In this document: piece by piece, positions 1-30,336 of the stretch | How positions within the stretch are numbered: position 1 is the first letter of the stretch | How the letters are laid out: each line of letters starts with the position of its first letter | Virus record (IMG/VR): IMGVR_UViG_3300044815_000193 | Location: 1-30,383 of that record | DNA length: 30,383 nt | From: a virus | Reading direction: 5' to 3' (one strand) | The notes under the pieces: generated by a model | Database searches by the model: none | Seen by the model: only the letters and a program-made list of their open reading frames with translations | What the model was told of the DNA's origin: nothing | Translations under genes and position numbers: made by a program

Positions 1-255
1 CACGAGGGTGTACTCTAGGCGTTGTAGCTCGCGCACCGCTGACGATGCGCTGGCGGTGGATATCCATCGGACCCATCCCCCGCGACATCCACACGCTAGC
101 GGTCCGCCTCCGACACGGCGGGCGCGACGCGTCGCCTCCCGGAGCACGAGCTTGCTCTACCAGGACCTCTACCCAGCCTCCCGCGATCCGCGTGCGTACC
201 CATCCCTTCGTTTTTTTGATTCGCGGTCCGGTGCCCAGGCAGGTACGTATTTCTG
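1..255. other. Region without a supported gene
   Basis: Two plus-strand frames stay open across this stretch, but they run into the promoter at 256-284, begin upstream of the window or at poor starts, and encode Arg/Pro/Ser-rich sequence unlike the neighbouring proteins. A run of seven T at 211-217 follows a weak CGCG-ATC-CGCG inverted repeat, which could be a poor terminator. The stretch AGGTACGTATTT just before the promoter is nearly identical to the one before the promoter at 2613 and may be an UP-like element. It may be the 3' part or trailer of a gene lying outside the window. Confidence 0.4.
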
Positions 256-284
256 TTGACGGTACGTCGACGTTGGTGTACACT
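256..284 (+). promoter_or_regulatory. Early promoter P1, near-leaderless
   Basis: A TTGACG -35 box (256-261), a 17-base spacer and a TACACT -10 box (279-284) lie 8 bases before the ATG at 293. Transcription should start about two bases before the start codon. The same layout recurs three more times downstream. The spacer contains the 10-base palindrome ACGTCGACGT. Confidence 0.85.
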
Positions 285-292
285 CACTGACG

Positions 293-676
293 ATGAAGCT
301 GCGCGTCTACACGAATCCAGACGTGCACACCGTGGAGGACGCGACGTGGGACCACCCGGCGCTCACCGCCTGGCAGCACGCCGTGGTGGTGTGGGACCGC
401 GACTACGGGCACCTCGAGCCGAACTCGATCCACGTGTGGAACGGCGACCGCCGGCCGAACCTCTGGATCGGCACCCACATGGTGGAGGTGCTCTACGGCA
501 GGACGTCGGGCGTGGTGCGGTGGTGCGGCCGGCACGCGCGGTGGGAGCTTGTGCACTCGCACCGCGACTGCCACATCGACTCCTTCACACGGGCGCGCCA
601 GCTGTCGATCGGGAACGACGAGTACAGCCGGCGCAAGGCGCCCGCGTGGCGCGCGCTCGGCATCCCGGGGTACTAA
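293..676 (+). CDS. Hypothetical protein, first gene after P1
   Basis: This 127-residue protein is rich in Trp, His and Arg and has no domain I recognise. The ATG at 293 is chosen because it lies 8 bases after the -10 box of P1; there is no room for a Shine-Dalgarno site, so it should be translated from a leaderless or nearly leaderless mRNA. It is the only gene of its unit: the next promoter starts 7 bases after its stop. It has no signal peptide or membrane segment. Its position in the early region suggests a small host-takeover or accessory role, but that is only inference. Confidence 0.8.
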   Translation: MKLRVYTNPDVHTVEDATWDHPALTAWQHAVVVWDRDYGHLEPNSIHVWNGDRRPNLWIGTHMVEVLYGRTSGVVRWCGRHARWELVHSHRDCHIDSFTRARQLSIGNDEYSRRKAPAWRALGIPGY

Positions 677-682
677 TTCATG

Positions 683-711
683 TTGACATCGTCACCACGT
701 TCGGGTACACT
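683..711 (+). promoter_or_regulatory. Early promoter P2, near-leaderless
   Basis: A consensus TTGACA (683-688), a 17-base spacer and TACACT (706-711) lie 9 bases before the ATG at 721. A dyad, TGAC-ATC-GTCA, spans the -35 box and the start of the spacer and could be an operator. The AT-rich stretch TACTAATTCA lies just upstream. Confidence 0.9.
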
Positions 712-720
712 CACCGTCCA

Positions 721-951
721 ATGTCGAGACCAAAGAATCACGTGGCCCTCCCTACCGGACCCATCTTGTGCGGGTGCTCGTCCGCACGCGCGATCATGTG
801 CGGCGACCTGTGCGCGGCCTGCGAGCGACGCGTGGTGGACGTGATCCACGCGCTCCGCGAGGTGACGCGTCACCTGTCCGACTTCCACGGGCTCGACAAG
901 CGCACGCGGCGCGCGATCGAGTTCGTGCACACCTTCTCGGAGGCGGCGTGA
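721..951 (+). CDS. Small Cys-rich protein (putative zinc binder)
   Basis: The 76-residue product has five cysteines close together (Cys17, 19, 27, 31 and 34, with a CxxC at the end), followed by a helical Arg/His-rich C-terminus. This looks like a small metal-binding module, though I cannot assign a family. The start is fixed by P2, whose -10 box ends 9 bases upstream, leaving about three bases of leader. It heads a six-gene unit (721-2599) and its TGA overlaps the next ATG by one base. Confidence 0.75.
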   Translation: MSRPKNHVALPTGPILCGCSSARAIMCGDLCAACERRVVDVIHALREVTRHLSDFHGLDKRTRRAIEFVHTFSEAA

Positions 952-1292
952 TGTCCAGCCCCGAGGCTTCCAAGCCCAAGCCCGAACTCGTCGTCTACTT
1001 CGTCGTGCACGTGCACGCCTACCGCGGCACGCCGAGCGGCGCGATCCAACCGCCACCCGCGGCCGACGAGCTGTCGAACGTGCGGCTCTCCCAGGCAGGT
1101 GACGAGAGCCTCGGCGAGTTCAAGAACCGCGTGTGCGAGTCGGTGAACAAGATCTCCATGCGGGTGGCCGAGGTCGCCGACGCGAAGAAGAAGCTCGTGC
1201 AGCTCGTGGAGCAGACCCGGCGCGCCGCGGGCGAGGCCGGGTTCGACGGCTTCGCCAACGACCTCGTAGCTCTCGTGGAGGAGCACCTGTGA
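951..1292 (+). CDS. Hypothetical helical protein, paralogue of the 2648 gene
   Basis: This 113-residue protein shares its plan with the protein encoded at 2648-2977. Both have an N-terminal YFVV-V segment, a central variable part, and a helical C-terminus with the pattern LVxxxRAAGxxxFA/LAxxLxxLxEEHL. The final Glu-Glu-His-Leu codons contain GGAGGAG, which can serve as ribosome binding site for the next gene. Likely coiled-coil in its second half; function unknown. Its start overlaps the previous stop by one base. Confidence 0.75.
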   Translation: MSSPEASKPKPELVVYFVVHVHAYRGTPSGAIQPPPAADELSNVRLSQAGDESLGEFKNRVCESVNKISMRVAEVADAKKKLVQLVEQTRRAAGEAGFDGFANDLVALVEEHL

Positions 1293-1675
1293 TGACGAAG
1301 GCAGATGAGATCAAGAAGATCGCCGGCGACATGCGGGAGGAGGGACGCCTCGACGAGGCGGCGGCTGCGCGCGCGGAGGCAGACGTGCTCGCCCTCAAGG
1401 GACGTCGGTTCTTCGGCGCCGTGCAGAACTACGCCGCGAACGTGCTGGGGCTCGACCGCAACGCGTTCGTTACCGAGTTCCACAAGCGCGTCGACGCGTG
1501 GCTCGAGTCGTACATGAAGCACCACATGGACCACGGGTGGCTCGGCAAGATGGTCCGGGACCGCGTCGAGGCGCACGTTCGCGCGCACGTCAACGCCATC
1601 GTCACCGAGACCGTCCGCAGCATGCTGTCGAAGAACCCAACGACCGTCACGATCACGTACGGAGGTGCGCAATGA
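1292..1675 (+). CDS. Hypothetical helical protein
   Basis: The 127-residue product is mostly helical and charged, with repeated His residues in the middle (KHHMDH) and a C-terminal Thr-rich strand. I recognise no family. The ATG overlaps the preceding TGA by one base and has GGAGGAG upstream inside the previous gene. Its own 3' end contains GGAGG six bases before the next ATG. It is the third gene of the P2 unit. Confidence 0.75.
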   Translation: MTKADEIKKIAGDMREEGRLDEAAAARAEADVLALKGRRFFGAVQNYAANVLGLDRNAFVTEFHKRVDAWLESYMKHHMDHGWLGKMVRDRVEAHVRAHVNAIVTETVRSMLSKNPTTVTITYGGAQ

Positions 1676-2049
1676 TCAACATCTACGAGATGCTTGCGAT
1701 GGTGCGCATGTCATGGGAGCACCTCGAGACGGCCTCCCACGTGCTCGACGACTTCGAGACCAGGCTGCGCGACGCGGAGCGCGGAGACTACCTCGGTGTG
1801 CTCTACCGCACCGACTACGAGGTCTCGGGTCGTGGCATGTTCCCCGTCGACATGCTGCGCTACACCTGCTCGTGGCCCGCGGACGAGGCGAGCGCGCGGG
1901 CGATCAGCGAGTCGACCAACAACAAGCCGACGTACACGGTGCGGCTGTCGAAGTACCACCGCGACGCGGTGCCCGAGCTTGCCGAGAGCCGCTGGAACTC
2001 GAAGTTCCGGTGGAGCGTGGAACGTCAGCTCGAGACGGTGTGGTTGTGA
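1672..2049 (+). CDS. Hypothetical protein
   Basis: This 125-residue protein has no recognised domain. It begins with a Met-rich helix (MINIYEMLAMVRM) and is otherwise mixed helix and strand with several Trp and Tyr residues, which suggests a compact soluble fold. The start is supported by GGAGG at 1661-1665 and an ATGA overlap with the preceding gene. Member of the P2 unit. Confidence 0.75.
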   Translation: MINIYEMLAMVRMSWEHLETASHVLDDFETRLRDAERGDYLGVLYRTDYEVSGRGMFPVDMLRYTCSWPADEASARAISESTNNKPTYTVRLSKYHRDAVPELAESRWNSKFRWSVERQLETVWL

Positions 2050-2369
2050 GCGCCGCCGGCGAGCGCGCGCTGCGCGAGGCGATCAACAAGCACCTGACGA
2101 TCAGCACGCGCCCGCACAGCGAGATCGTCGGGGCGCTCAACGCCTTCGTCGCTGAGGCGCACGAGAACCCGAACCCGGGCTACTGGCGCTCGCCCTACGG
2201 CGCGATCGTGCGCTTCGACGACCTGCAGGTGATCGACTTCGACGAGGACGCGCCAAGCGACGCGCAGCTCTACTACGACGGCGGGGGCAACCCGAAGGTG
2301 ATCATGATGACGCGCACGATGTACGACGAACTCGCGGCGGCGTTCGAGCGGTGGCTCACCGGCCGGTGA
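2046..2369 (+). CDS. Hypothetical protein, GTG start
   Basis: The product is 107 residues, acidic, with a FDDLQVIDFDED segment in the middle and a helical C-terminus ending in FERWLTGR. No family is recognised. The GTG start is chosen because it gives the GTGA overlap used at most junctions in this region; no good alternative lies upstream. Fifth gene of the P2 unit. Confidence 0.7.
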   Translation: MSAAGERALREAINKHLTISTRPHSEIVGALNAFVAEAHENPNPGYWRSPYGAIVRFDDLQVIDFDEDAPSDAQLYYDGGGNPKVIMMTRTMYDELAAAFERWLTGR

Positions 2370-2599
2370 GTTTGCCACCGTGCCGGTGCGAGATGTTCAA
2401 CTACGCCTTCACGTGCTTCGTGTGCAAGGTGCGCAACGACGTCATCCGCGACGACAGCGGCGTGGTGCGCGCGATCGGCCTGTGGTTCGCGTGTCGGTGG
2501 TGTCGACGCTTCTTCACCGTGATGCCCGACGTCGACTACTGCCCCGACTGCGTGCGCGACGTAGTTCCGCTGCTCGACCGCATCATCAGACCAAGCTAG
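2366..2599 (+). CDS. Small zinc-ribbon-like protein
   Basis: The 77-residue product has eight cysteines in four pairs: Cys6/Cys8, Cys17/Cys20, Cys43/Cys46 and Cys59/Cys62. Paired CxxC knuckles of this kind normally bind two zinc ions, so a small zinc-ribbon protein acting on nucleic acid or as an adaptor is plausible. It starts at a GTG overlapping the previous stop by four bases and is the last gene of the P2 unit; P3 begins 14 bases after its stop. Confidence 0.75.
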   Translation: MSLPPCRCEMFNYAFTCFVCKVRNDVIRDDSGVVRAIGLWFACRWCRRFFTVMPDVDYCPDCVRDVVPLLDRIIRPS

Positions 2600-2612
2600 G
2601 TACATATTTGTG

Positions 2613-2641
2613 TTGACATCGTCACCGGGCTCGTGTACACT
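2613..2641 (+). promoter_or_regulatory. Early promoter P3, leaderless
   Basis: TTGACA (2613-2618), a 17-base spacer and TACACT (2636-2641) lie only 6 bases before the ATG at 2648, so the expected +1 is the A of the start codon. The TGAC-ATC-GTCA dyad over the -35 region is identical to that of P2. The upstream AGGTACATATTTG resembles the stretch before P1. Confidence 0.9.
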
Positions 2642-2647
2642 CCCTCC

Positions 2648-2977
2648 ATGTCGAACACCAGCACCGATACCGACCTCTACTTCGTCGTCACCGTCGCGAC
2701 CCATCGCGACGACCCCGCGCAGAGCGCGAAGGACCGCGGCGCGCCGGGATCGGCGATCACGGCCACGCCGCTCGTGCAGATGCGCGACGAGCCCGACGCC
2801 CTGTTCTGGACGCGCGTCGAGACCTTCGCGAAGACGGAGCGCGCGAAGCTCGAGACCGCCACGAAGCAGCAGCGCGACCTCGCCGCGAAGCTGGACCAGC
2901 TCGTCAGCGAGGCGCGCGCCGCGGGCTACAAGGAACTCGCCGTGAGTCTCGAGGACCTCGCGGAGGAGCACCTGTGA
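2648..2977 (+). CDS. Hypothetical helical protein, paralogue of the 951 gene
   Basis: This 109-residue product resembles the 113-residue product of 951-1292: a YFVV-V strand near the N-terminus, a variable middle, and a helical end with RAAGYKELAxxLEDLAEEHL. The ATG at 2648 is preferred over an in-frame GTG at 2633, because that GTG lies inside P3. The ATG coincides with the expected transcription start, so the mRNA should be leaderless. The GGAGGAG in its last codons can serve as ribosome binding site for the next gene. Confidence 0.8.
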   Translation: MSNTSTDTDLYFVVTVATHRDDPAQSAKDRGAPGSAITATPLVQMRDEPDALFWTRVETFAKTERAKLETATKQQRDLAAKLDQLVSEARAAGYKELAVSLEDLAEEHL

Positions 2978-3270
2978 TCACGCCTGATGAAGTACGCCGC
3001 CTGCAGGAGGTCGCGGACAAGGCCGACAACCTCGAGAAGCAGATGGACGCCAAGATCCGCGAGTGTGTGCGGGCGCGCGGTGCGATCGCGTCGGTCTCCG
3101 GGATCGGCAGCAGCGACCTCGCAGAGGAACTCGCCGACCGCTACCGCATCGCCGGGTACCACGTCGTGGTCACCGACATCTCCAGCGACCGCATGACCTC
3201 GCCGGCCGATTGGAAGGTCGAGGTCGACATCTCTATCAAAACAAAGCAGAAGAAGGAACCGAGCACCTGA
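2974..3270 (+). CDS. Hypothetical protein
   Basis: The 98-residue product starts with a charged helix of about 35 residues, probably a coiled coil, followed by an alpha/beta part (residues 40-90) and a basic tail. The N-terminus resembles, weakly, that of the 1292 gene, which occupies the equivalent place after the other paralogue. GTGA overlap with the preceding stop fixes the start. Function unknown. Confidence 0.7.
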   Translation: MITPDEVRRLQEVADKADNLEKQMDAKIRECVRARGAIASVSGIGSSDLAEELADRYRIAGYHVVVTDISSDRMTSPADWKVEVDISIKTKQKKEPST

Positions 3271-3485
3271 TGCCGATCAAGAACGAGGGCAAGCCGAAGA
3301 AGCGCCTCTACACCGTCACCCTGAAGCGGACCATCGAGCACAGCGCTGTGGTCGATGACGTCGCGGCGACGAGCGCAACCGAGGCGATCGAGAAGGCCAT
3401 CAAGATCGCGGACGAGCACGACGCGAACCAGTGGCGCGAGGGCGACACGATCGGCGAGGACTCGAGCGCCAAGGTGCAGAGCTGA
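3270..3485 (+). CDS. Hypothetical small protein
   Basis: This 71-residue protein has a basic N-terminus, a beta strand (RLYTVTLKRTIEHSAVV) and a helix (SATEAIEKAIKIADEH). The strand-helix pattern is common in small phage proteins of unknown role. It overlaps its upstream neighbour by one base (TGATG) and its downstream neighbour likewise. Third gene of the P3 unit. Confidence 0.7.
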   Translation: MPIKNEGKPKKRLYTVTLKRTIEHSAVVDDVAATSATEAIEKAIKIADEHDANQWREGDTIGEDSSAKVQS

Positions 3486-3679
3486 TGGCTGGGAGCCGCG
3501 AGAAGGTGCTCGTGTCGCTCGCGCCCGACGTGATCGCGTTGATCGACGAGCGCGCGAAGTGGCACCGCATGAACCGTTCGCAGTACATCGCGGCGCGTTG
3601 CCTCGGACTGCTCGGCGATCCCGGAGATAAGAACGACGAGGACGAGCTGAAGAAGGCCGACCTCGGAGGTCCAACATGA
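3485..3679 (+). CDS. Ribbon-helix-helix DNA-binding protein
   Basis: The 64-residue product fits the CopG/Arc ribbon-helix-helix fold: strand EKVLVSLAPD (residues 6-15), a first helix (VIALIDERAKWH), a turn with Asn-Arg-Ser and a second helix (QYIAARCLGLL). RHH dimers normally insert the paired strands into the major groove and act as repressors. This one is a candidate binder of the TGAC-N3-GTCA dyads in P2-P4, which is inference. The acidic tail is specific to this protein. Member of the P3 unit with 1-base and 4-base overlaps. Confidence 0.75.
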   Translation: MAGSREKVLVSLAPDVIALIDERAKWHRMNRSQYIAARCLGLLGDPGDKNDEDELKKADLGGPT

Positions 3680-4182
3680 GCAACACCACCAAGGTCGAGG
3701 ACATGACGTCGCTGCTCGTGCCGCACCTCAGCGCGCGCGGCGTCGCGATCGTCACGAACATCCGACGTCCGACCGCACCTCAAGTCGCTGATGGCGAGTT
3801 GTTGGGTGACGTGTTCTACCTGACGACCCGCACGGCGCACGCGACCGTCGAGTTCGCGCGTCGCCTCGACGCCGTCTTCGCGTTGTTCGACGGGGTCCGC
3901 CGCTATGCGTCGGCGTGGGGCGTCATGTCGCCACACATCGACGCGCTGCTGTCACCACCGATGCGGATGCCGCTCGGATGTTACTCGTGGGAGGGCGGCG
4001 AGCCCGTGCGCTGCGCAGGTCCCGTGCGTGACCTCCTGCTGGTGTATCCCTACGTCGACGGTGCTCCGACCGCGATCTACGAAGACGTGCGCCTCTGGCT
4101 GAACGACGTCATCGCGGAGGGCTGCGGCGAGGAACGTCTCCAGTTCGAGCGCGCCGGCGACGTCGGAGGCATTGTCCTGTGA
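3676..4182 (+). CDS. Hypothetical protein
   Basis: This 168-residue soluble protein is among the larger products of the early region and has no family I recognise. It is alpha/beta in appearance with a central helical stretch (HATVEFARRLDAVFALFDGVRRYA). The start is supported by GGAGG at 3665-3669 and an ATGA overlap. Its stop overlaps the GTG of the next gene. Confidence 0.75.
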   Translation: MSNTTKVEDMTSLLVPHLSARGVAIVTNIRRPTAPQVADGELLGDVFYLTTRTAHATVEFARRLDAVFALFDGVRRYASAWGVMSPHIDALLSPPMRMPLGCYSWEGGEPVRCAGPVRDLLLVYPYVDGAPTAIYEDVRLWLNDVIAEGCGEERLQFERAGDVGGIVL

Positions 4183-4355
4183 GCGACGCCGCGAAGCTCG
4201 CGTCACCCGCGCCCGTCGTGTGCGATCGCTGCAATGGTGAGGGCTGGTACGTCGGTCCCGCGTTTGGCGGGTACGGACGCTACTGCACGTGCCCGAAGGG
4301 TGAGGACCTGATGCGCTGCGGGTCCGAGCTACCACCGCCGGGATCGAAGTCGTAG
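4179..4355 (+). CDS. Mini-protein with DnaJ-like CxxCxGxG half-site
   Basis: The 58-residue product carries CDRCNGEG (Cys15, Cys18), which matches one CxxCxGxG repeat of the DnaJ zinc finger, followed by CTCPKG (Cys36, Cys38) and Cys47. A single zinc site is likely. Such mini-ribbons occur in phages without known function. GTG start with a four-base overlap; it ends the P3 unit, and P4 begins 10 bases after its TAG. Confidence 0.7.
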   Translation: MSDAAKLASPAPVVCDRCNGEGWYVGPAFGGYGRYCTCPKGEDLMRCGSELPPPGSKS

Positions 4356-4364
4356 CAATTAGAG

Positions 4365-4393
4365 TTGACGTTGTCACCGCGATAGGGTACACT
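4365..4393 (+). promoter_or_regulatory. Early promoter P4, near-leaderless
   Basis: TTGACG (4365-4370), 17 bases, TACACT (4388-4393), then 9 bases to the ATG at 4403. A dyad, TGAC-GTT-GTCA, lies at the same place as in P2 and P3. AT-rich CAATTAGA lies just upstream. It drives the longest early unit (4403-7995). Confidence 0.9.
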
Positions 4394-4402
4394 CACTCCA
4401 TC

Positions 4403-4549
4403 ATGACGAGACATCCCGGGGAACAGGGTGAGGTGGCGCCGCCGACGTGGATCGACTGGCTGGCGGTCGCGGTGACGATCTGCGTGGCGGTGCCGGTCGG
4501 CATGCTGCTGGAACACCGCGCGCGGAAGCGTCGCTGGTGGAGACGGTGA
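4403..4549 (+). CDS. Small single-pass membrane protein
   Basis: The 48-residue product has a short polar N-terminus, one hydrophobic helix (about residues 17-36) and a strongly basic tail ending in RRWWRR. The positive-inside rule predicts the tail in the cytoplasm. The start lies 9 bases after the -10 box of P4, so translation should be almost leaderless. Small inner-membrane proteins at the head of early phage operons often alter host envelope or host defence, but no function can be assigned here. Confidence 0.75.
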   Translation: MTRHPGEQGEVAPPTWIDWLAVAVTICVAVPVGMLLEHRARKRRWWRR

Positions 4550-5769: not shown

Positions 5770-5993
5770 GATCGGACAAGGCTGGACCGCGCGGACCTCG
5801 TGGCATCTGTCCGAGATGCGGACAGAGCATCATGCTCTGGCGCAATACGCGTACCACTGGGATCCCGCACACCCAAGGGATGATCGGGTTCCACCAAGGA
5901 GACCTCGAGCGCGTCTACGCGACGTCGCGAGTCGGTGGCAAGGAGATGCGCTCATGTTCGGGCGTCGATCAACCACCGAAGACGAAGCCATGA
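5766..5993 (+). CDS. Small zinc-ribbon-like protein
   Basis: This 75-residue product contains CPRCGQSI near residue 15, a typical zinc knuckle, and only one further Cys near the C-terminus, so a complete four-ligand site would need His residues or a partner. The N-terminus is basic and Gly/Pro-rich. GTGA and ATGA overlaps tie it to its neighbours. Confidence 0.65.
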   Translation: MRSDKAGPRGPRGICPRCGQSIMLWRNTRTTGIPHTQGMIGFHQGDLERVYATSRVGGKEMRSCSGVDQPPKTKP

Positions 5994-7574: not shown

Positions 7575-7825
7575 TCGAGGACCACGACGCAGGAGACGAG
7601 GACGAAGATCGCCCGATGTGGAAGCGCATCACGCTTCGCTACGGGGATACCCTGTTCCTGTTTCCAAGGTCGTGGGTCGAGATGAAGATCCCGAGCTTGG
7701 AGAATCACGACCCGGGCGATGAAGAAGCCATCTGGATCCCGCGAAACGACGGGTCTCGAGAATTCATCGGCCCGCATCGGTACTACGTGAACATCGAAAC
7801 GCACATCGGACTAGGGGAACCATGA
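7571..7825 (+). CDS. Hypothetical protein
   Basis: The 84-residue product has an acidic N-terminus (DHDAGDEDED) and a beta-rich remainder with aromatic residues. No family recognised. GTG start in a GTGA overlap; followed by an ATGA overlap. Confidence 0.65.
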   Translation: MIEDHDAGDEDEDRPMWKRITLRYGDTLFLFPRSWVEMKIPSLENHDPGDEEAIWIPRNDGSREFIGPHRYYVNIETHIGLGEP

Positions 7826-7995
7826 ATCACAAGGGATCCAAGAACCCGAACGCCGTGCTCACGCCAGCGCTGGTCAAGGAGATGCGCCGCCTGCACGGAC
7901 TCGGGTTCGGTTACACCTGGCTCGCGCGGTGGCTCAACGTCTCGAAGTCGTGCGTGGCCCGCGTGATCACGGGCCAGACGTGGGTGAATAAGTGA
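7822..7995 (+). CDS. Small helix-turn-helix DNA-binding protein
   Basis: The 57-residue product is almost entirely one homeodomain-like helix-turn-helix: LTPALVKEMRRLHGLG (first helix), YTWLARWLNVS (second), KSCVARVITGQTW (recognition helix). This resembles the C-terminal HTH of resolvases and of phage HNH-associated proteins. Probably a regulator. It ends the P4 unit, and its stop abuts, with no spacer, the stop of the opposing gene. Confidence 0.75.
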   Translation: MNHKGSKNPNAVLTPALVKEMRRLHGLGFGYTWLARWLNVSKSCVARVITGQTWVNK

Positions 7996-8379
7996 TCAGA
8001 CCGGGTGCGTAGCGAGCACGGCGAGGGTTGCCTTCACCACGTTGGTGAAGAGCTTGTCCTTCGCCTGCTGCTCGAACGGCAGCTCCTCGAACGGCACGAG
8101 ACACGGGTGCGTCTTCGCGTCCGCGTCCTTCACCGAGCCGTGGTGCCACCCGTCGGCGATCTTCTGCTTCATCCACCCCTCGTGCGACTGCTCCGGCGTG
8201 ATGGACGAGTTCGTCATCACGGCGACGACGCCGTCACGCGCGCTCGACTTCTGCCACTCAGGTGCGTCGTCCCACGGCGCCTGCGAGACGTCGCCGAGCG
8301 AGCGGCAGTAGGCGCGGTTCGCCTCGTGGGCGGCGTGCGCGGCGGTCTCGATCTTCCAGTTCTCCGGGACCTCGACCAT
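7996..8379 (-). CDS. RyR-domain protein
   Basis: The 127-residue protein matches the single-copy RyR (ryanodine-receptor) domain found in bacteria and phages. Visible marks are EANRAYCRSLGD, PWDDAPEWQKSSARDGV, SHEGWMKQKIADGWHHG and HPCLVPFEELPFEQQAKD. It spans nearly the whole protein. In bacteria such domains have been proposed to sense nucleotide-derived ligands; the role in phages is unknown. It is the last gene of a three-gene minus-strand unit and converges on the plus-strand early genes with zero spacing. Confidence 0.85.
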   Translation of the reverse strand: MVEVPENWKIETAAHAAHEANRAYCRSLGDVSQAPWDDAPEWQKSSARDGVVAVMTNSSITPEQSHEGWMKQKIADGWHHGSVKDADAKTHPCLVPFEELPFEQQAKDKLFTNVVKATLAVLATHPV

Positions 8380-8609: not shown

Positions 8610-8870
8610 TCACGGGTTGGCGATCTTGTTGAGCTTCTGGACGTCGATGTGCTGCGGCATGCGCCGCGGAAAGTGGCGAAGCTTGATGTTCTTCTTGCGG
8701 AGGCGATTCGCGATCGCAGACACCGAGTTGTGCTTGATGTTGAGCGCCTTCGCGATCTCGCCGATCGAGTTCGCGGTCCGCCACAGCTTGACGAACTGCT
8801 CGTAGTTCACAGCCGGCGGTCGCCCACCCTTGCTCGCGGTCTTCTTCTTCTTCTTTTCTTTGGGCTTCAT
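8610..8870 (-). CDS. HTH regulator with Lys-rich N-terminus
   Basis: The 86-residue product has a run of lysines (residues 2-12) and then a homeodomain-like or sigma-like helix-turn-helix (about residues 22-62: FVKLWRTA, IGEIAKALNIK, SVSAIANRLRKK). It is probably a transcriptional regulator of the RyR unit and perhaps of divergent thyX. The ATG lies 7 bases after a -10 box on the minus strand, so this mRNA should also be nearly leaderless. Confidence 0.75.
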   Translation of the reverse strand: MKPKEKKKKKTASKGGRPPAVNYEQFVKLWRTANSIGEIAKALNIKHNSVSAIANRLRKKNIKLRHFPRRMPQHIDVQKLNKIANP

Positions 8871-8898
8871 TTACATATCGATACGTGGCCTGTAGAAG
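8870..8898 (+). promoter_or_regulatory. Candidate thyX promoter
   Basis: TTTACA (8870-8875), 17 bases and TAGAAG (8893-8898) precede a 26-base leader with AAGGA six to seven bases before the thyX ATG at 8931. The overlap with the minus-strand P5 means the two units probably compete or are jointly controlled. Confidence 0.5.
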
Positions 8899-8906
8899 AA
8901 TGTCAA
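8878..8906 (-). promoter_or_regulatory. Minus-strand leaderless promoter P5
   Basis: On the minus strand TTGACA (8906-8901) is followed by exactly 17 bases and TATCGA (8883-8878), then 7 bases to the ATG at 8870. Spacing matches P1-P4, although the -10 box is weaker and the TGAC-N3-GTCA dyad is absent. It overlaps the candidate thyX promoter on the other strand. Confidence 0.6.
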
Positions 8907-12849: not shown

Positions 12850-12876
12850 TTGACTCATGCCTGTTGGTCGTACTAA
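12850..12876 (+). promoter_or_regulatory. Candidate promoter for the 12888 unit
   Basis: TTGACT (12850-12855) and TACTAA (12871-12876) are 15 bases apart, shorter than ideal. The ATG at 12888 follows 11 bases later and no Shine-Dalgarno is visible, so this gene too may be translated from a very short leader. Confidence 0.4.
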
Positions 12877-12887
12877 CCTGCTGGCAC

Positions 12888-13196
12888 ATGGGCAAGAAGA
12901 CAGCTGCTGCGAACAAGTTCTCCGTCGGCGACGTCGTGGAGTGGACCTCACAGGCGAACGGGTCCTCCCTCAAGAAGATCGGGACGGTCGTCGAGGTGGT
13001 GCCGGCGACGAAGTCCACGAAGGCGACGCCGCTGCCGCTCGGGACGCGCGACCACGAGAGCTACATCGTCGAGGTGACCTTCGCTCCGAAGCGCTCCACG
13101 TCCGCGATCAAGAACGTTCGCGTGAAGAAGCCGAAGCGGTACTGGCCGCGCGTCTCCGTGCTGCGGAAGTCGCGCTTCAAGGCGGTGCACGCGTGA
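12888..13196 (+). CDS. Basic protein with SH3/KOW-like N-terminus
   Basis: The 102-residue product is rich in Lys and Arg. It contains KFSVGDVVEW ... KIGTVVEVVP, the pattern of small SH3-like or KOW-like beta barrels, and ends in a basic region (KKPKRYWPRVSVLRKSRFK). It may bind nucleic acid. ATG 12888 is chosen; an upstream in-frame TTG-initiated extension would run through the promoter. It heads the middle block and overlaps the next gene by four bases. Confidence 0.65.
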   Translation: MGKKTAAANKFSVGDVVEWTSQANGSSLKKIGTVVEVVPATKSTKATPLPLGTRDHESYIVEVTFAPKRSTSAIKNVRVKKPKRYWPRVSVLRKSRFKAVHA

Positions 13197-18678: not shown

Positions 18679-18708
18679 TGGACGAGGTGATGGCTTCAGC
18701 GGTAGGCT
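18679..18708 (+). promoter_or_regulatory. Candidate promoter before the 18716 gene
   Basis: TGGACG (18679-18684), an 18-base spacer and TAGGCT (18703-18708) lie 7 bases before the ATG at 18716, again with no Shine-Dalgarno. The same GGTAGGCT occurs at the same distance before the ATG at 23846, which suggests a second, weaker class of near-leaderless promoter. Confidence 0.4.
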
Positions 18709-18715
18709 GACCCTC

Positions 18716-19990
18716 ATGAGCGCAGGAACGGTCATCAGCGGCGGCTTCCCGGGTCGCGTCGCGCAGGAAGTTCAGCCGAACGCGAAGTGCAACGGGTGTC
18801 TCCACTTCGACGGCCAGGCCGGACGGACCGGGGTGTGCACGATCGGACTTCGGCCCTGGTTGTGTGGCGAAGACGGCAGCGCGGCCGACATCGGCTACGC
18901 GCCGATCGCACGTGGTGCCGGTTCGTACCTGCCCGACATGAACAACCACGGCGCGCACGCGTCGAGCGTTGCTCCGCAGGAGTCGGCGGACCTGTACGGT
19001 GTCGGGTCGACGCGTCCGGTGGCGTTCCAGGAAGTATCGCTCGGCGAGGAGCACGTCCGTTTCGTGAAGAGCGTCTTCGCGAACCACGTCACCCAGCAGC
19101 GCGAGATGTGCAGGATGTGCAAGAGCATCGGTACGACGATCGGCACCGGGCCGGCGAACAACGGACCACAGGTCTGCACGTGCGAGCCGATCGAGGCACG
19201 CTCGATCGCGAAGTCGCTCATCCCGCGGCTGTCCAACCGTGAACGCCTGGTCATCGACCTCAGCGACGCCACCGACTTCGTCTACTCCGTGATCAAGGGC
19301 GACGGGATCGCGAAGGGGACCTTCTACCACCACCACGGCAAGTACGAGGTCTCGCCTTCGGGCAAGGGTCAGCAGCACGTCGACTTCCACCCACGCGGCG
19401 GCGGCGAGACGACGCGCGTCGGCACGTTCGACACGCACAAGGAGGCACGGCGCGCTTCGGAGCATCACGCGCGTCGGTTCGCGCATGGCACCGGCGCGGA
19501 GAACAAGCCGTATGAGCACTCGAACGCGGCGCCGACCCACACCGCCGCCGAGCACACGGTGCGCGCGCACGCCGGCGCGAAGGAGAAGCCGAAGAGCACG
19601 CACACGCCTGCGGGTCTGCCTTCGATGAAGGAGGCGGTGAGCGTCGTCGGCAAGTCGGAGACCGCCGTCCCACACGTTTCGCACTTCAAGTCGCCGCACG
19701 GCAACTACAAGGTGGAGTCGAACCACAGCACCGGGGAGCACACCGTCCACTACACGCCCAAGGCCGGAGCGAAGGCACCGGCGCAGTCGGTGAAGATGCC
19801 GAGCCACGAGCACGCCGTGAAGATGGCGAAGGTGCACGCCTTCGTGAACGATCACGACGGCGAGCACTCACACGCCACGATGCATCACGATCACGTCGCG
19901 GTGCACGAGCCGCACAGCGGCCCGGACGGCGGCGCGGCCACGCACAAGGTCACGTCGATGGGAAGCGCGCGCGAGCACCTGGGGTACTAA
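18716..19990 (+). CDS. His-rich protein with two four-Cys clusters
   Basis: This 424-residue protein is unlike any family I know. The N-terminal half has two clusters: Cys25, 28, 41, 50 and Cys132, 135, 154, 156, each enough for one zinc or an iron-sulphur site. The C-terminal half is very rich in His and contains a degenerate repeat: residues 204-254 (HHHGKYEVSPSGKGQQHV) and 324-377 (SPHGNYKVESNHSTGEHTV). It sits 3 bases before the portal gene, where a terminase would be usual, but shows no Walker motifs. It may be a virion or packaging-associated metal-binding protein. Confidence 0.75.
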   Translation: MSAGTVISGGFPGRVAQEVQPNAKCNGCLHFDGQAGRTGVCTIGLRPWLCGEDGSAADIGYAPIARGAGSYLPDMNNHGAHASSVAPQESADLYGVGSTRPVAFQEVSLGEEHVRFVKSVFANHVTQQREMCRMCKSIGTTIGTGPANNGPQVCTCEPIEARSIAKSLIPRLSNRERLVIDLSDATDFVYSVIKGDGIAKGTFYHHHGKYEVSPSGKGQQHVDFHPRGGGETTRVGTFDTHKEARRASEHHARRFAHGTGAENKPYEHSNAAPTHTAAEHTVRAHAGAKEKPKSTHTPAGLPSMKEAVSVVGKSETAVPHVSHFKSPHGNYKVESNHSTGEHTVHYTPKAGAKAPAQSVKMPSHEHAVKMAKVHAFVNDHDGEHSHATMHHDHVAVHEPHSGPDGGAATHKVTSMGSAREHLGY

Positions 19991-21793: not shown

Positions 21794-23803
21794 ATGAGCG
21801 CCGGACCATACGCATTCATCAAGCAGGGAAACCTGTTCGTCGCGCCCATCAAGCAGGTCGCGGCAGCACCATTGCCGTCGCTCGATCGCGCGCGCCGGTT
21901 CTCGATGTGGATCAACGGCAAGATCGAGGAACCACCGTTCCAGCTCGACCAGGCACCGATGCCACCGACCACGTTCCAGGCGGTGCGTGACGACATCAAC
22001 CGCTTCTCGCCGGTCAAGGTGAGTCGGTCGGCGCTTCGCCGATCACAGCACGCGTACGTCGGCGTGATCGACTCCAACGGGACGCCGTACCACTTCGCGC
22101 TCGACAGTCGCGGTTTCTCGATCGAGAAGGCGACGGTCGGTGATGCATGGAGGGCGTTCGACAAGCTCATCGACGAGGAGCGCGTCATGGCGACCGAGTC
22201 GCGCCGTCATCGCGCCGACGTCGAGATGCGCGACGTCGAGCACGAGCTGTCGTCGCCGCAACCGCCGCTACTCGTCATCATGAAGAGCGAGGTCGCGCGC
22301 GTCTCGCGATCTGGTCGTCAGTTCTCCGTGGCGACGTCGACGGGCAACACCGACGTCCCGTCGTCGAGCGCCGCCGAGGACGCGATCCAGCACCACCTCC
22401 CCTCTGGGTTCAAGGTCGGCGGCGCGGTCAACCTGCACCGCGCATCCGTCCACGAGGGCGCCCCGCGAGGCGCTGCCGATCCGGACGCCATCCACGTCAT
22501 GAAGCCGTCGGAGATCGCCGCGCGCGGCGTGCACGGCAACGAGCTGCATCCCGAACATCTCGATTCCATCCGAAGCGCGTGGAACGAGGGCAAGCGTCTC
22601 GACCCGATCGACGTCAACGTTACGCACGACGGTCAGTGGCACGTCGAGGATGGCAACCATCGTCTCCACGTCGCAGCTGCGACGGATGCGCCTGTGGCGC
22701 TCCGGTTTCGTCAGCAGAGCAAGGACTACCGACCGCAGGCCGGCGTCCGTGACATCTCGGATCGACTTCGCTCGGCGCAGAGCACGGAGAAGAGCGACTT
22801 CGACTGGAAGCGGAAGACCAAGGAGCGCGTCGGCAAGAAGCCGGAGCCGAGCCCGTTGACGAAGGCCGAGCAGCACACCGGGACGATGATCTCGCTGCAC
22901 CTCCCGGCCGAGCTTGCAGATCGGATCGCGCTGCCCGACGGAGAGTCGCCGAGCACGATGCACATCACGCTCGCGTACCTCGGCAAGGACCTCACGGAAG
23001 AGCAGAAGCTCGCCGCCGCGTGCGCGGTGCGTCGGTTCTCGCAGTACGCGTATCACGTGCGCGCCGTGCTCGGCGGCGTCGGGCGCTTCAGCGCGAGCAC
23101 CACCACCGAGGGTCGCGACGTCGTCTACCTCTCGGTGGACTCGCCCGACATCACGCGCCTGCGTCCGAAGCTGCTCGATGAGCTGGCTGCTGAGGGGTTG
23201 GTGCCGAACGACACGCACGGGTTCATCCCGCACGTCACGCTGGCGTACGTGGCGACCACCGCGCGCACGCCGATCAAGCGGTTCCCTCCGACGCCTGTCG
23301 AGTTCACGCGCGTGTCGCTCGCGGTAGCCAACACGCAGATCCACTTCCCGTTTCAACAGGAGCGCGCGATGTTGCAGGCCATCCACGGCTCTCAGCCGTC
23401 GCTCGTCATCAAAGCGCTGCCGAAGAAGCCGAAGACGGACGAAGCGAAGAAGACGCCGAACAAGAAGACGTCGAGCAAGAAGATCGGATCCGGCGGCAAG
23501 ACGCGCTATGGATACCTCGACGAGAAGAAGAAGAAACCGGCCGGCGGCGGCGCGAAGGGTCAGCAGCAGCTCGTGATCGTTCGTCACGACGACACCAAGC
23601 ACGCCGACCCGGGCGAACTCGCGAACCAGCTCGGTGTCTCGGTGCGCACGCTGCAGCGCGCGGCGGAGAAGCTCGGACGCGACGGCTTCGCGAAGTTCAT
23701 GCGTGCTCACCTCAAGCGGTTCAGCGCGAAGCACAGGATCGACCCGAGCTACTGGCATACGCTGCACACGAAGCTCGAGGCGATGTCGCCACCGACGTTC
23801 TAG
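21794..23803 (+). CDS. ParB-like / 2H phosphodiesterase / HTH fusion protein
   Basis: The 669-residue protein has several modules. Residues 1-150 are unassigned. Residues 235-305 look ParB-like (LHPEHLDSIRSAW, then VEDGNHRLHVAA with Asn288-His289-Arg290). Residues 360-520 carry two H-x-T motifs, MHITLAYLG (His390, Thr392) and PHVTLAYVA (His480, Thr482), the hallmark of LigT-like 2H phosphodiesterases. A Lys-rich linker (540-590) follows, then a helix-turn-helix (603-625, LANQLGVSVRTLQRAAEKLG) and a helical end. GAGAGG supports the ATG. It lies between portal and MuF, so it may be a virion protein. Confidence 0.8.
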   Translation: MSAGPYAFIKQGNLFVAPIKQVAAAPLPSLDRARRFSMWINGKIEEPPFQLDQAPMPPTTFQAVRDDINRFSPVKVSRSALRRSQHAYVGVIDSNGTPYHFALDSRGFSIEKATVGDAWRAFDKLIDEERVMATESRRHRADVEMRDVEHELSSPQPPLLVIMKSEVARVSRSGRQFSVATSTGNTDVPSSSAAEDAIQHHLPSGFKVGGAVNLHRASVHEGAPRGAADPDAIHVMKPSEIAARGVHGNELHPEHLDSIRSAWNEGKRLDPIDVNVTHDGQWHVEDGNHRLHVAAATDAPVALRFRQQSKDYRPQAGVRDISDRLRSAQSTEKSDFDWKRKTKERVGKKPEPSPLTKAEQHTGTMISLHLPAELADRIALPDGESPSTMHITLAYLGKDLTEEQKLAAACAVRRFSQYAYHVRAVLGGVGRFSASTTTEGRDVVYLSVDSPDITRLRPKLLDELAAEGLVPNDTHGFIPHVTLAYVATTARTPIKRFPPTPVEFTRVSLAVANTQIHFPFQQERAMLQAIHGSQPSLVIKALPKKPKTDEAKKTPNKKTSSKKIGSGGKTRYGYLDEKKKKPAGGGAKGQQQLVIVRHDDTKHADPGELANQLGVSVRTLQRAAEKLGRDGFAKFMRAHLKRFSAKHRIDPSYWHTLHTKLEAMSPPTF

Positions 23804-23830
23804 GTCCTGTACCCGGGTCGAGCACGCAGG

Positions 23831-23836
23831 TAGGCT
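23831..23836 (+). promoter_or_regulatory. TAGGCT -10-like box before the 23846 gene
   Basis: GGTAGGCT precedes the ATG at 23846 by 9 bases, as before the 18716 gene. No clear -35 is seen and no ribosome binding site is present. Weak evidence for a near-leaderless promoter. Confidence 0.3.
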
Positions 23837-23845
23837 CTGATCTAC

Positions 23846-25003
23846 ATGCCGGGTTCCCACACTAGTAAGCAGAAGCGGATGGCGCGCCACATCTACGAGA
23901 CGGCGAAGCGTGGAGGGCACGACGATCACGCGGCCGAGCGCATCGCGTGGGCGACGGTGGCTTCGTTCAAGAAGGCGTCGGCGATCGAGTATGGGGACAA
24001 CACTTCGGCGCGCGGAGGAGCTGGAACTATGGCTCCCAAGCCACCACCACAGCCCAAGGCTCCGACTCCGGCTCCGAGCATCACGACGTCGACGCCGAAC
24101 CACCAAGAGTTCGTGCAGCGCGTCCCGGTCAATCCAACTACTGCAGCTGATGGGACAGCTGGAACCACCGTGCCGCCTCGCGCTCCTGTGATGGTTGGGA
24201 GCCCTGGTGTAGGATCTCGAGTCGTGAAGGCAGATCCTCCGTCGATGAACGCGCAGTTCCAACTCTTGAACGACAAGATCCGTCGTCGCGCTCGTCGCAA
24301 GAAGCGCATCGCCAAGGCCGGCGAGGCATACCTCCCGAGACCGAAGACCAAGAACTCCTCTCCGCGTGAGCGGATGTCTCGCATGTCGTACGGGACTTCG
24401 GGGAAGCGCGTGAATCGTCTCGAGCAGCGGATGCAAGGAATCAAACCTCTCGGGACGCACACCGTCACTGCAACGGCACCTGCGTCAGCGCCGACGCGGT
24501 CAGCAGAAAAGCGCTTCGGCTTCGATGCTCATGGGAAGTCACTTCGCGTGGTGTCGATCGACGAAGCACACGCGATGCTGAAGGGTGAGGCAGGCGCGAT
24601 GCCGGCCGCGCCCGGAGCGCAGCCTCCGCCGAAGCGCTTCCCGCGCGGCGACAAGCCGACGATCAAGATGAAGCCGATCTCCGACGGCGAGGCGATGGCG
24701 AACCTGAAGGCAGGCAAGTTCCACGAGAAGTCGCTGCGCACGCTCGCCGCGATCAAGGCGCTCGTCGCTGGTTACGGGAACCTCGCCGGTGCCGACGCGC
24801 TCCGCTCGGCGAACCGCGGATCGCTCAGCATCCACGACCTCAACCGCGCGATGGAAGTGATGCCGAAGCCGAAGGGTGCCGTCCCTCCGCCGACGACATA
24901 CCTGCCTGGCGTCCATGGCCCCGACGTGAAGCAGCGCGCCGCTAAGATCCGGTCGCAGGCCCGCACCAAGAAGCCCGCAGCCGCATCCGCCGCCGCTCCC
25001 TGA
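23846..25003 (+). CDS. Hypothetical protein with basic helical N-terminus
   Basis: The 385-residue protein begins with SKQKRMARHIYETAK ... AAERIAWATVASFKKA, a short motif found in many phage and plasmid proteins near the N-terminus. It continues with Pro/Thr-rich low-complexity linkers, a basic region (RRRARRKKRIAKAG) and an Ala/Pro-rich C-terminus. Disorder is predicted by composition. A structural or DNA-binding head component is plausible; no enzyme motif is visible. Confidence 0.7.
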   Translation: MPGSHTSKQKRMARHIYETAKRGGHDDHAAERIAWATVASFKKASAIEYGDNTSARGGAGTMAPKPPPQPKAPTPAPSITTSTPNHQEFVQRVPVNPTTAADGTAGTTVPPRAPVMVGSPGVGSRVVKADPPSMNAQFQLLNDKIRRRARRKKRIAKAGEAYLPRPKTKNSSPRERMSRMSYGTSGKRVNRLEQRMQGIKPLGTHTVTATAPASAPTRSAEKRFGFDAHGKSLRVVSIDEAHAMLKGEAGAMPAAPGAQPPPKRFPRGDKPTIKMKPISDGEAMANLKAGKFHEKSLRTLAAIKALVAGYGNLAGADALRSANRGSLSIHDLNRAMEVMPKPKGAVPPPTTYLPGVHGPDVKQRAAKIRSQARTKKPAAASAAAP

Positions 25004-30000: not shown

Positions 30001-30336
30001 ATGCCGCCGACCAGAAACACCACCGCACCTCACCCGTACCAGAGCCGCCAGAACGAGCTGCTCCACTCGGGCATCGTCACCATTCCGGCCGCGGGCTCGC
30101 TGCTCGTCGATCTCGGGATCGGTCACAACAACTTCGTGCCGAGCATCGTCCAGCAGGCGTCTCTCGCCGCGGACGTGAACAAGGCCGCGAAGATCTCGTG
30201 GGCGTACGGGACGCGTCCCGGCACGTTCACCATTTACGCGTGGAAGGCGACTGCCGCCGGCACCACCACCCTCATCGCGGCGACTGCAGCTGTCGTCGTC
30301 TCGTTCACGGTGATCGCCGACAGCTCGGTCGGCTAA
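30001..30336 (+). CDS. Small probable virion protein
   Basis: The 111-residue product is Ala/Thr/Val-rich and beta-stranded (LLVDLGIGHN, FTIYAWKATAAGTTTLIAA, VVVSFTVIADSS), like small decoration or head-fibre proteins encoded next to the capsid gene. A strong AAGGAG ribosome binding site precedes the ATG. Position between protease and probable capsid gene supports a decoration role, but the family is not recognised. Confidence 0.65.
   Translation: MPPTRNTTAPHPYQSRQNELLHSGIVTIPAAGSLLVDLGIGHNNFVPSIVQQASLAADVNKAAKISWAYGTRPGTFTIYAWKATAAGTTTLIAATAAVVVSFTVIADSSVG

Follow-up and report, generated by a model that had tools for sequence, protein, structure and literature searches.

Four early transcription units of an uncultivated phage are each predicted to begin at a leaderless sigma70-type promoter, and at three of the four the -35 box forms one half of a palindrome that a phage-encoded dimeric repressor may bind, shutting off the units together or holding them under feedback control, a combined reading that we regard as moderately probable. 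The window (the whole 30,383-nt stretch analysed here, the 30-kb virus record IMGVR_UViG_3300044815_000193, GC 65%) contains exactly four matches to TTGACR-N17-TACACT, at 256, 683, 2613 and 4365, all on the + strand, against a mean of 0.00 in 100 dinucleotide shuffles. P1 (256-295) consists of TTGACG at 256-261, a 17-nt spacer, TACACT at 279-284 and an ATG at 293-295; P2 (683-723) of TTGACA at 683-688, TACACT at 706-711 and an ATG at 721-723; P3 (2613-2650) of TTGACA at 2613-2618, TACACT at 2636-2641 and an ATG at 2648-2650; and P4 (4365-4405) of TTGACG at 4365-4370, TACACT at 4388-4393 and an ATG at 4403-4405. The exact search and the sequence agree with the original prediction of four TTGAC(A/G)-17-TACACT copies at a fixed spacing from an ATG, with 8, 9, 6 and 9 nt from the -10 box to the ATG of P1, P2, P3 and P4. 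With +1 placed at the seventh base after the -10 box, the leaders computed from the sequence are 2, 3, 0 and 3 nt, which bears out the expected start 0-3 bases before the start codon; at P3, only pyrimidines separate the -10 box from the A of the ATG, so that this A is itself the likely +1. The four ATGs open ORFs of 127, 76, 109 and 48 codons, and over the -35 and -10 boxes together 9-10 of 12 positions match sigma70, consistent with sigma70-type promoters heading four early units.

At P2-P4, the -35 box doubles as the left arm of a palindrome, GTTGAC-N3-GTCACC, which was absent from the original prediction. It reads GTTGACATCGTCACC over the -35 boxes of P2 (682-696) and P3 (2612-2626) and GTTGACGTTGTCACC over that of P4 (4364-4378), in each case as an unstranded feature, with the consensus TT-N3-GKTGAC-N3-GTCAMC. 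We interpret it as a putative operator at which a dimeric regulator of the phage, probably acting as a repressor, would bind. P1 keeps the left half-site GTTGAC with a poor right half, and the lack of a good right half-site there counts against an operator scheme common to all four promoters. A TT at -5/-4 before GTTGAC is present in all four and is near-invariant in relatives too. The AT-rich stretch noticed earlier upstream of P1 and P3 is indeed shared, in a more specific form than had been stated: the two have GGTACRTATTT in common, part of which is the outer arm of the palindrome. A 39-bp palindrome bounded by GTAC at both ends of P1-P3 was considered and dropped, as it is absent from P4 and not general in the related phages.

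A near-identity search against known phages gave zero matches. Compared with Bacillus phage SPO1 and its relatives, the portal and prohead protease show 40-51% identity across 55-77% of the protein length, from which the phage appears to be an uncultivated SPO1 relative; a lytic lifestyle is typical of this group, and no integrase was noticed in a non-exhaustive look at the window phage. The window has no tRNA and no match to an Rfam family. Closer relatives are uncultivated contigs found by their portal, and thyX as a query gained none in addition. The early region is present in two of them, labelled B and C. Phage B was joined from IMGVR 3300005844_000024, 3300025711_000007 and 3300025711_000019, whose overlaps are 99.98-100% identical, and the assembly closes at ~117 kb; phage C is IMGVR 3300012930_000020 (39 kb). 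A search for the host through genome contigs returned only distant portal relatives (Anaerococcus and a Flavobacteria MAG), and no host was found.

The same palindrome stands before genes in B and C. Its perfect form, GKTGACNNNGTCAMC, occurs 3 times in the window, 14 times in B and 6 times in C, against 0.00, 0.07 and 0.07 expected from shuffles; among related records it is found once in G009 and not in G010 or G003, the last being a weaker control than the other two because it lacks the early region. In several B copies, the symmetry extends to ~27 bp, as in GTTCCCGTTGACATTGTCAACGGGAAC at 5901. Since the B and C copies were gathered by the palindrome itself, base conservation within them proves nothing, and the weight lies on their number relative to shuffles and on their position relative to genes. 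As to position, 19 of the 23 perfect palindromes in the three phages have an ATG at 21-25 nt from one of their edges, against a background of 5.9% at random positions (binomial P ~3e-20; an ATG was counted only when it opened an ORF of 35 codons or more). Nearly all copies have a -10-like hexamer correctly placed between palindrome and ATG. In phage C, several of these hexamers match the consensus poorly at their first position (CACGAT, GACGCT, GAACCT, TGTGCT), yet TGn precedes them. A few copies in B stand away from a leaderless promoter and weigh against the operator-promoter reading. They are at 5901 (with a Shine-Dalgarno (SD) site and a longer leader), at 18697, at 24568 and at 30142, the last followed downstream by a promoter of its own kind, TTGACG-18-TACACT-8-ATG, separate from the palindrome. 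A cassette of operator-like site, promoter and AUG recurs in B and C, and the preservation of its spacing in two related phages lends weight to the leaderless reading.

Leaderless-type promoters are also found apart from the palindrome. A loose pattern, TTGAC-N17..20-TANNN[TA]-5..10-ATG, which assumes neither the exact boxes nor a 17-nt spacer, gives 6 sites in the window (0.05 expected), 10 in B (0.18 expected) and 3 in C (0.03 expected), and none in G003 or G009. The window sites are P1-P4 and two promoters without a palindrome, one on the - strand (8870-8906, TTGACA-17-TATCGA-7-ATG) preceding a helix-turn-helix (HTH) gene at 8610-8870, and one on the + strand (12850-12890, TTGACT-18-TAACCT-8-ATG) preceding the gene 12888-13196. 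The strict form TTGACN-17-TACACT is absent from the first 12 relatives, and the idea that the promoter is a private feature of the window was overturned once the -10 box and spacer were relaxed. A scan of the collection with the extended promoter of the window gave six single matches, on contigs without tblastn similarity to window proteins.

Translation signals divide the genes by their place in the unit. The duplex with the anti-SD sequence has a median of -3.95 kcal/mol at the four first genes, close to the random background of -2.9, with the P1 gene the strongest of the four at -5.3 kcal/mol. The medians are -7.1 kcal/mol at internal early genes and -6.25 at genes beyond 12.8 kb, and in the window an SD-like motif stands before 18% of the genes that come first in a unit, compared with 68% of internal ones. 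As internal early genes carry the strongest SD sites, a weak SD is a property of unit-first genes and not of early genes. The strong SD sites attributed earlier to genes on the capsid side are borne out in part by their median of -6.25, although internal early genes exceed them.

Two structural-side genes moreover carry leaderless-type promoters themselves. The first of these elements (18679-18718, +) has TGGACG at 18679-18684, an 18-nt spacer, TAGGCT at 18703-18708 and an ATG at 18716-18718. Homologues of its gene in B, C, G001, G003, G008 and G011 have a like element 6-7 nt before the ATG, and that in G007 has a variant, TACGCT, without the TGGAC box. The N-termini at this ATG are near-identical in all eight proteins (M[SAP]AGTVISGGFPGR; MAGTVISGGFPGR in G011). 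The second element (23807-23848, +) reads CTGTAC-18-TAGGCT, with the hexamer at 23831-23836, followed after 9 nt by an ATG at 23846-23848; its counterpart before the G003 homologue is TAGGCT-7-ATG, and B has a similar site. With this second promoter class at structural-side genes, late units, "late" being assigned from gene content, look leaderless too. The proposal of separate translation modes for early and late genes finds no support, given these late-side promoters and the best SD sites lying at internal early genes; the real divide is between unit-first and unit-internal genes.

Under the mechanism that we favour, transcription from P1-P4 would start at the seventh base past the -10 box, leaving a leader of 0-3 nt, and the first gene of each unit would be translated from a 5'-terminal AUG, with genes further along relying on SD sites or coupling. 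A phage-encoded dimer would bind the palindrome over approximately -36 to -22 and occlude RNA polymerase at the -35 element, and the likeliest use of such binding would be to shut off the early units or place them under feedback control together. The position of +1, translation from an AUG at the 5' end and the blocking of polymerase by a dimer are taken from established knowledge.

As the dimeric protein, we tentatively suggest a 57-aa HTH protein (7822-7995, +) common to the window, B and C. It is encoded by the last of the window's early genes in the stretch ending at 7995, and for none of the others did blastp find a homologue in B or C; its own homologues show 60 and 64% identity between the window and B and C, respectively, and 78% between B and C. 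The cassette is thus conserved while the genes driven by it mostly turn over, and it is this association that hints at the 57-aa protein as palindrome binder. By the same association, a second candidate is an 86-aa HTH protein (8610-8870, -), also common to the three phages, whose gene has its own leaderless-type promoter and no palindrome. Neither protein has a tblastn match in the distant 117-kb relatives G009 and G010. Since the window, B and C are kin, the co-occurrence of palindrome and HTH protein may reflect descent only. In family searches, the 57-aa protein best matches the HTH portions of phage DNA-binding proteins, HNH-associated ones among them, and not a known repressor family, which counts against it as the repressor. 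So does the weakness of its structural evidence: the predicted model has moderate confidence, with a mean pLDDT of 72, and the nearest solved structures, headed by SIRV1 ORF55, have non-significant E-values.

The palindrome might instead bind an activator, or a host regulator exploited by the phage, and serve to switch the early units on from leaderless promoters. The -10 hexamers of phage C, weak at the first base as in activator-dependent promoters, would fit such a scheme, but the TGn preceding them compensates for this weakness, and the boxes in the window fit sigma70 well enough that help from an activator should be unneeded. Moreover, the centre of the palindrome falls near -29, on the -35 box and spacer, where binding usually blocks polymerase; we consider activation unlikely. 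Slightly less likely still is that the promoters are leaderless and have no dedicated regulator, the right half being part of what the host polymerase recognizes or a by-product of promoter copying. The four promoters of the window are near-copies and the boxes of P1 should suffice without the right half-site, as this explanation would have it. However, symmetry of ~25 bp is no sigma70 feature, B copies lacking an adjacent leaderless promoter show longer, near-perfect symmetry (as at 5901), and at 30142 in B the palindrome sits upstream of a separate promoter.

We give the lowest probability to ordinary leaders, in which the ATGs are not true starts or transcription begins further upstream. 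The first early genes lack conservation, so that ORFs and codon use are what their start codons were assigned from, which leaves room for this explanation; against it stand the 21-25 nt spacing kept at 19 of 23 palindromes, the weak SD-like signals at the four first genes and, for the late promoter class, an ATG backed by conservation of the protein N-terminus in eight phages. Repression from a shared palindrome at leaderless promoters remains our preferred reading.

The kinds of element involved have precedents. TANNNT ~12 nt before the start codon is an accepted signature of leaderless genes (PMC3160421; for Deinococcus-Thermus, PMC12340547). The present promoters resemble those of leaderless bacterial genes in having the -10 box immediately ahead of the ORF, equally spaced, and in needing no SD; unlike them, they belong to a phage, have a strong -35 box inside a palindrome and form a near-identical repeated cassette. 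In the Thermus phage phiYS40, most middle and late mRNAs are leaderless (PMC3594737). Messages without leaders are common to that lytic phage and, as predicted from sequence, to the present one; here, in contrast, early and late unit-first genes both appear leaderless and the early ones bear a palindromic site. L5-type mycobacteriophages have repressor sites dispersed genome-wide, each an asymmetric 13-bp sequence to which a monomer binds (PMC9283540). The window phage resembles them in that one regulator site is dispersed over promoters and intergenic places, with copies at promoters far above chance (3, 14 and 6 against 0-0.07), and differs in that its sites are symmetric and mostly at promoters. 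We therefore rejected an L5-like stoperator system: the site here is a palindrome, and the L5 site is asymmetric and oriented with transcription. As in the host-takeover region of SPO1-like Herelleviridae, small early genes of unknown function stand in a block behind several promoters, but the window differs from that region in its high GC, leaderless geometry and palindromic -35 region. A literature search of open-licence papers found no leaderless early phage promoters with operators; the combination appears to be new, and the leaderless promoter and the dispersed operator are each already known as kinds.

A wider interpretation, which we offer as a possibility somewhat short of even odds, is that this lineage fused operator, promoter and start codon into a cassette of ~40-50 bp under one phage regulator, preserved as a whole while the genes behind it are exchanged freely, with a second, independent leaderless class serving late units and 5'-AUG initiation used at the start of transcription units in both phases. 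The lambda cI gene is an example of leaderless initiation among phages, and to our knowledge few cases are documented. If true, such a phage would be a natural system for studying how a phage programme can run on 5'-AUG initiation, and would raise the question of whether the IF2/IF3 balance is shifted by such phages. This fixed cassette could also serve as a signature for early, host-takeover-type genes without recognizable homologues in uncultivated phages, and it directs the search toward a regulator.

Several further observations concern the genes of these phages. The products of 951-1292 in the P2 unit and 2648-2977 in the P3 unit are diverged paralogues (33% identical), which suggests duplication of a unit. 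In phage B, the first gene behind one palindrome cassette (L034:2984-3544) encodes a C-terminal HTH of the 8610-8870 family, making this family multi-copy in B. In phage C, a membrane sensor-like protein with a HAMP domain (L081:4181-5110) is encoded directly before the HTH gene and has a 32% homologue elsewhere in B. A RyR-domain protein (7996-8379, -; Pfam E 3e-12) is common to the window and B. The gene after the portal (21794-23803) may encode a composite protein, as its PHROG matches are mixed, with head maturation protease, RNA ligase and ParB-like families among them. Finally, a small ORF in B (L034:4829-4993, -) resembles a RiPP precursor, with a leader, a GG motif and a Cys/Thr-rich core; it scores 23.7 bits with TIGR04149 (NCBIfam), slightly under the cut-off of 25, also matches a class I lanthipeptide leader weakly, and is possibly a hint of the host.
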